From: Rhodovulum euryhalinum
Lineage (GTDB): Bacteria > Pseudomonadota > Alphaproteobacteria > Rhodobacterales > Rhodobacteraceae
DNA length: 64,000 bases
Direction of reading: 5' to 3'
NCBI RefSeq assembly: GCF_004342445.1
Contig: NZ_SLWW01000003.1
Span: 1-64,000 of the forward strand
How positions within the stretch are numbered: position 1 is the first letter of the stretch; each line of letters starts with the position of its first letter. A program made the translations under genes and the position numbers. The notes beneath the pieces are model-generated. The model saw only the letters and a program-made list of their open reading frames with translations. It had not been told where the DNA came from and made no database searches. Positions 18,982 to 26,346 of this stretch are shown here, piece by piece.

Positions 18982-18997
18982 TGTCGGAAAACTGACA
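18982..18997 (+). promoter_or_regulatory. NifA upstream activator site before nifA
   Basis: TGTCGGAAAACTGACA matches the NifA consensus TGT-N10-ACA exactly. It lies 110 bp before the nifA start. A weak GG-N10-GC element (GGTGCATCTCCCGC, about 19037-19050) could be the matching sigma-54 -24/-12 site. This suggests nifA is autoactivated or that a minor NifA-dependent promoter exists; the 16-bp motif alone can occur by chance. Confidence 0.55.
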
Positions 18998-21257: not shown

Positions 21258-21273
21258 TGTCGCCGCACCGACA
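21258..21273 (+). promoter_or_regulatory. NifA upstream activator site before nifB
   Basis: TGTCGCCGCACCGACA is an exact TGT-N10-ACA NifA site. It lies 55 bp upstream of the -24/-12 element of nifB, on the correct side for NifA contacting sigma-54 polymerase by DNA looping. Confidence 0.72.
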
Positions 21274-21325: not shown

Positions 21326-21343
21326 TTGGCACGCTTTCTGCTT
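21326..21343 (+). promoter_or_regulatory. Sigma-54 promoter of the nifB operon
   Basis: TTGGCACGCTTTCTGCTT fits the -24/-12 consensus YTGGCACG-N4-TTGCW: GG at 21328-21329 and GC at 21340-21341 with the required 10-bp spacing. It is nearly identical to the nifH promoter at 25382-25399. Transcription should start about 12 bp further on, giving a short leader to nifB at 21382. Confidence 0.9.
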
Positions 21344-21381: not shown

Positions 21382-22848
21382 ATGTCCTCGCCCCTGATCC
21401 CGCTGTCCGGCCTGAAGATCGCCACCAGAAAGGAGATGGGGCAGGGGGGGTGTTCGGCCTCGTCCTGCGGGTCCAAGGCCGGGCCGGACGACATGGACCC
21501 GGCCACCTGGGCCAAGGTCAAGGATCACCCCTGCTATTCCGAAGAGGCGCATCACTACTTTGCCCGGATGCACGTAGCGGTCGCGCCCGCCTGCAACATC
21601 CAGTGCAACTACTGCAACCGGAAATACGACTGCGCCAACGAAAGCCGCCCGGGCGTCGTGTCGGAGCGCCTGACGCCGGATCAGGCCGCGCGCAAGGTGC
21701 TGGCGGTGGCCGCCGAGGTGCCGCAATTGTCGGTTCTCGGGATCGCCGGGCCCGGCGACGCGGCCTATGACTGGAAGCGAACGAAATCCACCTTCGAACA
21801 GGTCGCAGAGCGGCTGCCCGACATCCGGCTGTGCCTGTCCTCGAACGGCCTCGCGCTGCCCGACCGGGTGGACGAGATCGTTTCGATGAACATCGACCAC
21901 GTGACGATCACGATCAACGCCATCGATCCCGAGATCGGCCAGCACATCTATCCCTGGGTCTTCTTCCAGGGCGCGCGGCACACGGGGATCGAGGCCGCCA
22001 CGATCCTGCGCGACCGCCAGCTTCTGGCGCTGGAAATGCTGACCGCGAGGGGCGTGCTGGTCAAGGTGAACTCGGTGCTGATCCCGGGCATCAACGACGA
22101 GCACCTGATCGAGGTGAACAAGGCGGTGAAAGCGCGGGGCGCCTTCCTGCACAACATCATGCCGCTGATCTCGGACCCGGCGCATGGCACGCATTTCGGC
22201 CTGACCGGCCAGCGCGGGCCGACCGGCGCCGAACTGAAAAAGGTGCAGGACGCCTGTGCGGGCGGCGCGAACCTGATGCGCCATTGCCGCCAGTGCCGGG
22301 CCGACGCGGTGGGCCTGCTGGGCGAGGATCGCGGGCAGGAGTTCACCCTCGACAAGCTGCCCGAGGTGATCGAGGACGCCCCCGAGGCGCGCGAAGCCTA
22401 TCGCGTCTGGGTGGCCGAGGAACGCCGTGACCGCGCCGCCGCCGCTGCCGCCGCAGAGGCCGTGGTTCCCGCCGCCGAAACGCCCACCCTGTTTGCCGTC
22501 TGCACCCGGGGGTCGGGCCGGATCAACCTGCATTTCGGATACGCGACGGAATTCCAGATCTACGAGGCCGATGCCGACGGCATCCGCTTCGTCGGGCATC
22601 GCCGGGCGGACAATTACTGCCTTGGCGGCCATGGCGACAGCGAACGGATGGAGGAGATCCTGCGGGTGCTGGCGGACGTGCCCTATGTCCTGTGCGCCAA
22701 GATCGGCGACGGCCCCCGCAAGAGGCTGGCCGCGGCGGGCATCGAGGCGATCGACAGCCTTGGACAGGACTATATCGAGACGGCGATCGCCGCGGTTCTG
22801 GAGGCCAGGACGGCGCGGACGGGCCGGGATGCCGCACGGCGCGCCTGA
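21382..22848 (+). CDS. nifB: Nitrogenase cofactor biosynthesis protein NifB
   Basis: 488 residues. A radical SAM domain with the C-x3-C-x2-C cluster motif (CNIQCNYC, around 71-78) makes up the first 300 residues. A C-terminal NifX-like domain (from about 370, beginning TLFAVCTRGSGRINLHFGYA) follows an Ala-rich linker. NifB builds NifB-co, the 8Fe-9S-C precursor of FeMo-co, from 4Fe-4S clusters and SAM. Further conserved cysteines occur near the N-terminus (GGCSASSCG) and in MRHCRQCRADAVG. ATG 21382 follows GAAGGAG. It heads a six-gene NifA/sigma-54 operon. Confidence 0.97.
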   Translation: MSSPLIPLSGLKIATRKEMGQGGCSASSCGSKAGPDDMDPATWAKVKDHPCYSEEAHHYFARMHVAVAPACNIQCNYCNRKYDCANESRPGVVSERLTPDQAARKVLAVAAEVPQLSVLGIAGPGDAAYDWKRTKSTFEQVAERLPDIRLCLSSNGLALPDRVDEIVSMNIDHVTITINAIDPEIGQHIYPWVFFQGARHTGIEAATILRDRQLLALEMLTARGVLVKVNSVLIPGINDEHLIEVNKAVKARGAFLHNIMPLISDPAHGTHFGLTGQRGPTGAELKKVQDACAGGANLMRHCRQCRADAVGLLGEDRGQEFTLDKLPEVIEDAPEAREAYRVWVAEERRDRAAAAAAAEAVVPAAETPTLFAVCTRGSGRINLHFGYATEFQIYEADADGIRFVGHRRADNYCLGGHGDSERMEEILRVLADVPYVLCAKIGDGPRKRLAAAGIEAIDSLGQDYIETAIAAVLEARTARTGRDAARRA

Positions 22849-22875: not shown

Positions 22876-23070
22876 ATGGCCTTCAAGATCGTCACCTCGC
22901 AATGCACCGTCTGCGGCGCCTGTGAATTCGAATGTCCGAACGCGGCGATCCGGTTTCGCAAGGGCGCCTATGTGATTGACCCCGCGCTCTGCACCGAATG
23001 CGAGGGCCAGTTCGCGGCCCCGCAATGCGCCTCGATCTGCCCGGTGCCGAACACCTGCGTTCCGGCCTGA
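22876..23070 (+). CDS. 4Fe-4S ferredoxin of the nif cluster
   Basis: 64 residues with two cluster motifs: [12 protein letters not shown] (C-x2-C-x2-C-x3-CP) near the N-terminus, and [18 protein letters not shown] (C-x2-C-x8-C-x3-CP) in the second half. This is the 2[4Fe-4S] ferredoxin type that follows nifB in many diazotrophs (FdxN/FdxB-like) and is thought to supply electrons or clusters for NifB-dependent cofactor assembly. It is separated from nifB by 27 bp. The exact gene name differs between species, so none is assigned. Confidence 0.92.
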
Positions 23071-23074
23071 TGCG

Positions 23075-23848
23075 ATGCCGGGCGGTCCCGATCCGCTGGA
23101 CTGGCAGGGCCGGCCGCTGGAGTGCGGCGCCTGCCGGTTCGCGGCACTGCTTGCCCGGCGCCAGTGTGGGCCGGGCTGGTCCTGCGCCTTCGATCGCTAC
23201 GCGCCCCGGATCGCGCGGTTCTTCGTGATGAACCCCGAGGCCGCCGATCTCTGCCTCGATGCGCCTTATGCCGAGACTCGGGCTAACGCGGCGCGGGTCG
23301 CGAACCTGTTCCGGCTGCGCCCGCTGCTGGACGATCCCGACCCGGGGGTGCGCGCGGTTGCGGTGCTGCGCCTGCCCGCGGCGCAGGCCCGCGCCGCGCT
23401 GAACGATCCCGAACGCGAGGTGCGCCTCGCGCTGGCTTGGCGGTTGCCGTTTGCCGATGTCGTGCAGCTTCTGTCCGACGCGGATCCCCAGGTGCGGCTG
23501 GTTGCGGCGCGACGTGCCGATCCGGGCGTGCTGCCGCTTCTGGTGCATGACCCGGACCCGGAAATCCGCGCGCTGGTGGCCGGTCGCATCGGCCTGCGCT
23601 GGATCGACCCGCTGCTGGCCGATCCCGAACCGCTGGTCCGCCGCGCGGTCGCGGCCCGCCTGGCGCCCGAGCGACTGCCGGCTCTGGCCGACGACCCGGA
23701 CCTGCGGGTGCGCCACGCCGTCGCCGAACGGGCCGGTGCCGCGCTTGCCGCGCGCCTGCTCGACGACCCCGAACCGCCCGTCCGCGAGGCCGCTGCCGCG
23801 CGGCTTGCCGAACTTTCCGCCGAAAGGGAAACCGATGTCGACCGATGA
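23075..23848 (+). CDS. LRV (leucine-rich repeat variant) Fe-S protein
   Basis: 257 residues. The N-terminus has a Cys cluster (ECGACRF, RRQCGPGWSC) of the kind that holds a 4Fe-4S cluster in the Azotobacter LRV protein. The rest is a chain of about seven repeats of roughly 24 residues, each with a DPDPxVRAxVAxRL-like core (for example DPEREVRLALAWRL, DADPQVRLVAARRA, DPEPLVRRAVAARL). The function is unknown; such proteins recur in nif regions and may be scaffolds. ATG 23075 lies 4 bp after the ferredoxin stop and the 3' end overlaps nifZ by 14 bp. Confidence 0.88.
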   Translation: MPGGPDPLDWQGRPLECGACRFAALLARRQCGPGWSCAFDRYAPRIARFFVMNPEAADLCLDAPYAETRANAARVANLFRLRPLLDDPDPGVRAVAVLRLPAAQARAALNDPEREVRLALAWRLPFADVVQLLSDADPQVRLVAARRADPGVLPLLVHDPDPEIRALVAGRIGLRWIDPLLADPEPLVRRAVAARLAPERLPALADDPDLRVRHAVAERAGAALAARLLDDPEPPVREAAAARLAELSAERETDVDR

Positions 23849-24113
23849 CCGCGAAATCGAGATCTACGGCCCGCCCGCCTTCGAACCCGGAGAGAAGGTG
23901 CGCTGCCTGAAACACATCCGCAACGACGGCACCGTACCCGGCCGCGAGGTCGGCGAATTCGTCGTGCGCAAAGGTGAGGTGGGCTATGTCCGCGACATCG
24001 GCACCTTCCTGCAACAGTTTTACATCTACGCCGTCGAGTTCGTTGACAGCCGCAGCATCGTCGGCATGCGCCGCGATGAGCTTGTGAGCCTTGAAAAGGA
24101 GATCGCCCAATGA
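23835..24113 (+). CDS. nifZ: Nitrogen fixation protein NifZ
   Basis: 92 residues with the NifZ-domain features: EIYGPPAFEPGEKVRCLKHI at the start, then GEFVVRKGEVGYVRDIGTFL and IYAVEFVDSRSIVGMRRDEL. NifZ acts as a chaperone in formation of the second P-cluster of the MoFe protein. ATG 23835 lies inside the end of the LRV gene (14-bp overlap) and the stop overlaps nifT by 4 bp, so all three are translationally linked. Confidence 0.94.
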   Translation: MSTDDREIEIYGPPAFEPGEKVRCLKHIRNDGTVPGREVGEFVVRKGEVGYVRDIGTFLQQFYIYAVEFVDSRSIVGMRRDELVSLEKEIAQ

Positions 24114-24319
24114 AGATCATGGTCCGGGAAACGCCCAAGGGCATGGAGGTCTACGTGCCCAAGAAGGATCTCGAGGAACTGGTCGTCGAATCCGAGAAAC
24201 CGGGCGTCTGGGGCGGCTGGGCCAGGCTTTCGAATGGCTGGACCTTCGAGATGCCCGCTTTCGACGAGGCGCCGAAACTGCCGATCACGGTCGAGGCACG
24301 CCGGCTGTCGGTGGAGTAG
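24110..24319 (+). CDS. nifT: Nitrogen fixation protein NifT/FixU
   Basis: 69 residues, the usual size of NifT. It begins MKIMVRETPKGMEVYVPKKD and contains WGGWARLSNGWTFEMP, the typical family core. The role is not established; deletions in other diazotrophs have little effect on fixation. It starts at the ATGA overlap with nifZ and ends 5 bp before the SIR2-like gene. Confidence 0.93.
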   Translation: MKIMVRETPKGMEVYVPKKDLEELVVESEKPGVWGGWARLSNGWTFEMPAFDEAPKLPITVEARRLSVE

Positions 24320-24324
24320 GGGTG

Positions 24325-25158
24325 ATGGGGGACGAAACCCGCCTCGCGCATCTGATCGAAGAGATCGCCCAGGGCAAGCGCGTGCCCTATCTGGGCCCGG
24401 GCGTCGCGGCGCTGTCACCGGGGGCGGCACCCGCCTCACCGTCGGATCTGTGCGCCGCGATCGAGGCGAAGGTGCGGGCGCCGAAACGGGCCACGGGCAA
24501 CCTGTGGTCGGTCGCCCAGTTCGTCGAAAGCCGCCGGTTCCGCCGGACGCTGGAAGCGATCGTGCAGGAGGTCTTCACCGCGCGGCCCGTGCCGGGGTCC
24601 TTGCATCGCTGGATCGTCCGCGCGCGCCCGCCGCTGGTGATCGACGCCTGGTATGACGGCCAGATCCTGGATGCCGCGATGGCCGAGGGCATGGGCACCT
24701 GGGGCTGGGTGCAGGGCATCAGCCGCAATGGCGAAAGCCGCGACATCTGGACCCTGGCCTATGACTCGACCGGCGCGCTGCTTGGCGAGGCCCCCGATCC
24801 GGCCTGGGAGACGCTGGTCTACAAGCCGCACGGGTTGATCCGTCCGGGCCATTCCTTCCTGATCTCGGACAGCGACTATGTCGAGGTGCTGACCGAGATC
24901 GACATCCAGAGCCCGATCCCGGACGAGGTGCAGAACCGCCGCACCGGCCGCCCCTTCCTGTTTCTCGGCTGCCGCTTCGACGACCAGCTCTTGCGCACCT
25001 ATGCCCGGCAGGTGGCGAAACGGGCGGGGCAGGGCCATGTCGCGGTGATCGAGGGGCCGCTGACCCGGATGGAAGAGAAGTTCTTCGACGAGATGGGGAT
25101 CGAGCGGCTGGATCTGCCGCTGTCCGCGGTGGAGGCCGCGGTGTCGGTCCCGGCCTGA
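24325..25158 (+). CDS. SIR2-like protein at the end of the nifB operon
   Basis: 277 residues with the outline of the SIR2_2 group: an N-terminal glycine loop YLGPGV (22-27), IDAWYDGQILDAA (106-118) where the family has a TxNYD-type motif, the catalytic-type His in KPHG (167-170), DSDY (182-185) and the C-terminal strand FLGCRFDDQLL (213-223). Sirtuins and SIR2 NADases use the Asn of that motif plus the His; here Trp109 stands where Asn is expected, so NAD hydrolysis is doubtful and NAD(H) binding or sensing is an alternative. It is co-transcribed with nifT (5-bp gap) and followed by a strong terminator. Confidence 0.7.
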   Translation: MGDETRLAHLIEEIAQGKRVPYLGPGVAALSPGAAPASPSDLCAAIEAKVRAPKRATGNLWSVAQFVESRRFRRTLEAIVQEVFTARPVPGSLHRWIVRARPPLVIDAWYDGQILDAAMAEGMGTWGWVQGISRNGESRDIWTLAYDSTGALLGEAPDPAWETLVYKPHGLIRPGHSFLISDSDYVEVLTEIDIQSPIPDEVQNRRTGRPFLFLGCRFDDQLLRTYARQVAKRAGQGHVAVIEGPLTRMEEKFFDEMGIERLDLPLSAVEAAVSVPA

Positions 25159-25195
25159 ACACTCTGAAAACCGTGAGCTTGCGCCTTTCTGATGC

Positions 25196-25222
25196 GGCCC
25201 CCATCCGGGGGCCGTTTTCTTG
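25196..25222 (+). terminator. Rho-independent terminator of the nifB operon
   Basis: GGCCCCC (25196-25202), loop ATCC, GGGGGCC (25207-25213), then GTTTTCTT. It lies 38 bp after the SIR2-like stop and separates the nifB operon from the nifH promoter. Confidence 0.88.
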
Positions 25223-25299: not shown

Positions 25300-25315
25300 T
25301 GTCGGGTTCTACACA
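25300..25315 (+). promoter_or_regulatory. NifA upstream activator site before nifH
   Basis: TGTCGGGTTCTACACA is an exact TGT-N10-ACA site about 70 bp upstream of the nifH -24/-12 element. The stretch between the two is A/T-rich (25340-25375), which would favour DNA bending. Confidence 0.75.
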
Positions 25316-25381: not shown

Positions 25382-25399
25382 TTGGCACGCTTCCTGCTT
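25382..25399 (+). promoter_or_regulatory. Sigma-54 promoter of nifHDK
   Basis: TTGGCACGCTTCCTGCTT has GG at 25384-25385 and GC at 25396-25397, exactly 10 bp between, matching YTGGCACG-N4-TTGCW. It differs from the nifB promoter by one base across 18. nifH starts 72 bp downstream. Confidence 0.93.

Positions 25400-25452: not shown

Positions 25453-26346
<894 letters not shown>

Follow-up and report, generated by a model that had tools for sequence, protein, structure and literature searches.

A nif-confined family of SIR2-like proteins predicted to lack the SIR2 active site

The nifB operon of Rhodovulum euryhalinum ends in a gene for a SIR2-like protein, which we analyzed in a 64,000-nucleotide stretch of the genome (the window). 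On balance, the evidence favors an accessory protein dedicated to the Mo-nitrogenase, with a SIR2 fold but no catalytic activity, that is made from the nifB operon under NifA/sigma-54 and works by binding. Earlier work had already recorded the gene, how it is regulated and probably a phenotype. The new element is a widespread family of SIR2 proteins, confined to nif clusters, that appears from its residues to be built without the SIR2 active site.

The ORF encodes a genuine protein of 277 amino acids that begins 5 bp past the nifT stop (24319). A preliminary description made from the DNA sequence had placed it there, ahead of the operon terminator, and a hairpin was indeed found downstream. 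The gene order is nifA, then nifB-fdxN-LRV-nifZ-nifT-SIR2, the hairpin, and nifH at 25471. The features are as follows.

21258-21273, forward strand: NifA upstream activator-like site (UAS-like; TGT-N10-ACA) before nifB, 54 bp before the -24/-12 element
21327-21341, forward strand: sigma-54 -24/-12-like element TGGCACGCTTTCTGC (TGGCAC-N5-CTGC), 1 mismatch, 40 bp before the nifB ATG (21382)
21382-22848, forward strand: nifB, radical SAM with NifX-like C-terminal domain, start of the operon
22876-23070, forward strand: fdxN-type 4Fe-4S ferredoxin
23075-23848, forward strand: LRV protein with N-terminal FeS4 motif (LRV_FeS 2.2e-18; start picked from the ORF translation)
23835-24113, forward strand: nifZ (NifZ 5.7e-32)
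24110-24319, forward strand: nifT (NifT 2.7e-27; TIGR02934)
24325-25158, forward strand: predicted nif-associated SIR2_2 pseudoenzyme, with Trp109 (DAWYD), His169 (KPHG) and Arg217 in the columns of the catalytic Asn, the catalytic His and the late Ser
25194-25215, forward strand: intrinsic terminator-like hairpin at the operon end, 9 bp stem and T-rich tail

The LRV protein with the FeS4 motif, between fdxN and nifZ, recurs regularly in the operons of relatives. In the source genome a nifE/N-type match (C7:100773-102032) and draT (C7:14910) lie on a different contig from nifHDK, unlike in several Rhodovulum relatives (L003, L007, L009), where nifE-nifN directly follow nifK.

The SIR2 gene is predicted to be co-transcribed with nifB-fdxN-LRV-nifZ-nifT under a NifA/sigma-54-type promoter and belongs to the NifA/sigma-54 nif regulon. 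Taken singly, neither the UAS-like nor the -24/-12-like pattern is commoner than chance (TGT-N10-ACA occurs 4 times in the window against a chance mean of 3.5). The promoter call draws its weight from their pairing, since both precede nifB and a similar pair precedes nifH (TGT-N10-ACA at 25300, -24/-12 element at 25383). A further TGT-N10-ACA, at 18982-18997, falls within the long nifA ORF in its 5' portion, perhaps ahead of the actual start of nifA, and may serve NifA autoregulation.

Published work on related bacteria points the same way. The R. capsulatus operon nifB1-rcc03265-nifZT-rcc03262 depends on NifA; its SIR2 protein, Rcc03262, was detected in the wild type and absent in a nifA double mutant (PMC6925177). 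A drawing of a Rhodovulum nif operon likewise shows a “SIR2-like protein” (PMC9412634). These proteins share with ours the position nifB-...-nifZT-SIR2 and the dependence on NifA (PMC6925177, PMC9412634). In these two papers we found the name, operon place and abundance of the protein, and no catalytic-residue analysis or function. NifA control, which had been proposed from the position of the gene, is thus upheld both by the elements before nifB and by the R. capsulatus counterpart.

The motifs LGPG, DAWYD, KPHG and FLGCRFDD are all present in the protein, and residues 104-260 matched Pfam SIR2_2 (PF13289) with 70.1 bits and an E-value of 2.7e-19 (curated cutoff, 24.5 bits), while none of the NCBIfam models covers it. 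When the single 277-residue protein was compared with the PDB by phmmer, chance matches only were obtained, and a family profile was therefore required. This profile, made from an alignment of 26 members (A2) and run against PDB sequences with hmmsearch, recovered SIR2 NADases: ThsA 7uxt (4.3e-8), ThsA 6lhx (1.6e-6), KomC (~5e-6) and DSR2 (3.5e-4). In the hmmsearch alignment the Trp109 column is the Asn of TTNYD in ThsA 6lhx (N112, counting from the first residue printed), and YKMHG (His152) of the same protein lies at the K-P-x-G column that contains His169. An AF2 model built from 12 close sequences (pLDDT 70, pTM 0.68, poor at 182-195) gave ThsA and DSR2 as its best PDB matches in Foldseek (prob 1.00, TM ~0.6). 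The predicted SIR2 Rossmann fold stands, at medium model confidence. Both the SIR2_2 fold and the replacement of the catalytic Asn by Trp in DAWYD, as given in the preliminary description, are confirmed by these comparisons.

The best Foldseek match, ThsA (the Thoeris NADase, SIR2_2; PDB 6lhx, 8btp), has the same fold, and the G-x-G start and the NYD/WYD, HG and late G-x-x-F-x-D blocks all align. Unlike ThsA, the nif protein is without the catalytic Asn, consists of a SIR2 domain alone in its 277 residues and occurs in nif operons, not defense loci. PADLOC matches to ThsA1 and LmuA were weak (0.02-0.03), and assignment as a defense gene was rejected.

To follow these residues across the family, relatives were taken from Rhodovulum, Rhodobacter and Cereibacter, from proteobacterial genomes that span more than one class, and from symbiotic and other plasmids, including those of Paraburkholderia and Methylococcus. 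Clade 1 comprises 55 proteins from alpha-, beta- and gammaproteobacteria (41 non-redundant, below 90% identity). Trp stands in the Asn column in all 55 (41/41 non-redundant), and invariance over so many sequences and three classes argues that this is not chance. The Tyr after this column and the Pro before the HG position are also invariant in the 55 proteins. The His column is less uniform: it is H in 33/41 members, the R. euryhalinum protein included, and L, S, W, Y, M or I in 8/41. In the distant clade 2, five proteins of 21-31% identity, Asn is retained in DINRD or DCNRD, with Met or Leu at the His column. Four clade-2 members (L055, L057, L058, L059) come from small proteobacterial genomes, often beside ankyrin-repeat and ArsC/Spx-like genes.

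No nif-linked member sampled in either clade has both catalytic residues together. SIR2_2 proteins encoded elsewhere in related genomes, on the other hand, have the Asn in 14/14 cases, H in 12 and Y in 2 (mostly in KLHG-like motifs), and the Ser of GxGxS in 14/14. Clades 1 and 2 group together, apart from the sampled canonical SIR2_2 proteins (support 100/99; several canonical branches are very long), and P21, E68, R73, P168, D182, D184, V186, I198, P199, R206, R224 and E250 are invariant in both. A literature search for an analysis of the family's catalytic residues found none, with subscription papers mostly outside its scope, and a search for biochemistry on any clade-1 member found none.

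These data bear on whether the protein could be an active NAD-dependent deacetylase acting on nitrogenase or NifA. Such a role has been suggested in print for ZMO1821 of Zymomonas mobilis (PMC8600466), and the SIR2 annotation and the retained His169 of the R. euryhalinum protein would be in keeping with it. However, Trp occupies the catalytic Asn column throughout clade 1 and the His is not conserved. The protein has just two Cys, C43 and C216, and so the Cys4 zinc module of sirtuin deacylases is absent. The nearest folds are the ThsA and DSR2 NADases, with SIRT3 reaching just rank 50 among the Foldseek matches of the model. Sirtuin deacylases such as CobB and SIRT3 have the superfamily fold in common with the nif protein but differ in their zinc module, catalytic Asn and other motifs. 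We therefore consider a working deacetylase highly improbable. More generally, either deacetylase or NADase activity of the nif SIR2 protein seems unlikely from its residues.

The preliminary description had raised a different role, in which the protein may bind NAD(H) as a sensor. In its broader form, the pocket would bind NAD(H), NAD-derived or other nucleotides uncleaved and signal the redox state to nitrogenase or NifA. A Rossmann-type SIR2 fold kept while catalysis is lost is the pattern expected of such a sensor; the first Gly of the N-terminal GxG is invariant and the second mostly retained, and the invariant new Arg224 and the near-invariant Arg217 could bind phosphate. The remainder of the pocket argues otherwise. 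GxGxS reads GPGVA here, its Ser column being A/L/T/F in nearly all nif members; the Thr before the Asn column is also replaced in nearly all of them; and the late GYS Ser is Arg in 52/55 clade-1 proteins and in all of clade 2. The second Gly is E, D, A or S in 12/55 clade-1 proteins, the residue before HG has become Pro, and Trp at the Asn position would presumably occupy the pocket at its nicotinamide end. Because these signature residues are lost beyond the Asn itself, NAD(H) sensing is not favored, and we judge the sensor unlikely. The earlier observation was confirmed; its interpretation was partly supported overall, NAD(H) binding being so far unsupported.

The distribution of the gene ties it to nitrogen fixation. 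All clade-1 loci examined are within a nif cluster. The upstream neighbor is mostly nifT directly, or otherwise a PLP-enzyme or 2Fe-2S ferredoxin gene that is itself downstream of nifT, and rhizobial plasmids have the order nifA-nifB-fdxN-nifZ-nifT-SIR2. Two clade-2 loci are beside nifB, one is near nifHDK and one is on a contig with nifD/nifE; the fifth is on a short contig piece with no nif gene. In a sample of 385 alphaproteobacterial genomes the gene was found in 7/13 with nifD and 0/372 others (p = 7e-12, ignoring phylogeny), and in a phylum sample of 398 genomes in 15/41 with nifD and 2/357 others (p = 1e-14, ignoring phylogeny). Both exceptions without nifD in the phylum sample carry NifE/N-type matches. 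Roughly one nifD genome in two thus carries the clade-1 gene in the alphaproteobacterial sample and about one in three in the phylum sample; genomes without nif practically never do. Within the genus, 14/15 relatives have a clade-1 copy. For 30 nifD genomes lacking the gene, the family profile also gave no match, in a search run without a positive control.

One Rhodobacteraceae genome (G514) with the gene and no nifD was rejected as a true exception: there the gene is cut off by the end of its contig and preceded by nifB-fdxN-LRV-nifZ-nifT, which indicates an assembly gap. Weak or partial extra genome matches were likewise discarded as family members, being canonical SIR2_2 proteins or fragments. 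The survey of nif loci found both the neighborhood and the Asn-to-Trp change conserved. Neither of the outcomes named beforehand as speaking against the preliminary description, a protein without a Rossmann SIR2 core or absence of the gene from other nif operons, occurred.

The genome survey also addresses a link to the DraT/DraG switch, in which the protein would bind ADP-ribosylated NifH or its NAD donor. NAD chemistry connects SIR2 folds with ADP-ribosylation and the source genome has DraT. However, DraT was present in 7/20 carriers of the SIR2 gene (13/20 without it) compared to 24/30 nif genomes lacking the gene (6/30 without it), the opposite association, with phylogeny uncorrected. The absence of DraT from 13 of the 20 carriers contradicts the link, and we regard this largely refuted role as the least probable of those considered.

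It could also be speculated that the gene is a relic of a defense NADase, a passenger of nif operons that has lost its function. The homology to anti-phage SIR2 effectors would be consistent with this, as would broken SIR2 copies, each next to nifT, in R. gallicum M101 and Microvirga lotononidis (frame change) and Bradyrhizobium sp. 187 (several stops). Between-species dN/dS, obtained by the crude NG86 method, was 0.23-0.55, with ~0.5 toward more distant genera; the range as a whole suggests constraint on the SIR2 gene, while its upper end could be read in favor of a relic. On the other side are 17 invariant columns over the 26 proteins of A2, the invariant Trp of clade 1, and strict nif linkage in three classes. 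Furthermore, Rcc03262 is made at levels on par with other Nif accessory proteins (PMC6925177), and the mutant of a presumed P. stutzeri counterpart, PST1325, loses activity (PMC2820453). A non-functional relic is therefore quite improbable. Since about half or more of the sampled nifD genomes are without the gene and three symbiotic plasmids have broken copies, it is dispensable in some settings.

PST1325 has been called a SIR2 family protein (PMC11332353) and resembles the R. euryhalinum gene in that it adjoins nifH and was induced under nitrogen fixation, by 9.7-fold (PMC2820453, PMC11332353). In the 2010 study, nitrogenase activity in its non-polar mutant fell to 23% of the wild-type level, lower than in any other of the nine mutants tested (PMC2820453). 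By annotation and neighborhood PST1325 presumably belongs to the same family, and it could be clade 1, clade 2 or neither. ZMO1821, compared here by description, is similarly a SIR2-like gene within a nif island whose protein is up under nitrogen fixation (PMC8600466, PMC8594446); it differs in being a proposed deacetylase.

Loss of the Asn abolishes SIR2 chemistry, as is established for sirtuins and ThsA. Because the Asn column is fixed as another residue while the His varies, selection is evidently not on catalysis, and the invariant residues common to both clades suggest a retained binding or assembly role. We infer that the clade-1 protein lacks catalysis and acts by binding. The SIR2 pocket would have been remodeled, with an invariant Trp in place of Asn, Arg in place of Ser, Pro ahead of what was the HG motif, and D182, D184, V186, I198-P199, R206, R224 and E250 as new invariant residues. 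The protein would then bind a nitrogenase maturation partner, or a ligand other than substrate NAD+. The operon partners NifB, NifZ, NifT and the LRV protein either work in cofactor and MoFe maturation or close to it, or have no known function, and from its position among them we would place the SIR2 protein there as well. It would be a helper that raises the yield or activity of nitrogenase and not a strictly essential step, as some nif genomes are without the gene and broken copies exist.

More tentatively, the family may represent a pseudo-sirtuin class specialized for nitrogenase, a non-catalytic module that delivers, senses or protects something specific to maturation. The invariant Trp/Arg pocket would then be a new site for a ligand or partner, and a different catalytic residue would have been lost in each of the two branches.

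The practical question of which accessory proteins nitrogenase needs is still open, and it matters for any transfer of nitrogen fixation to other organisms. The family is found widely in proteobacterial nif operons, and its earlier label as a likely SIR2 deacetylase motivated an acetylome study. Once the loss of catalytic residues and the phenotype of PST1325, a likely relative, are joined, Trp109 offers a defined residue for testing a nitrogenase helper.
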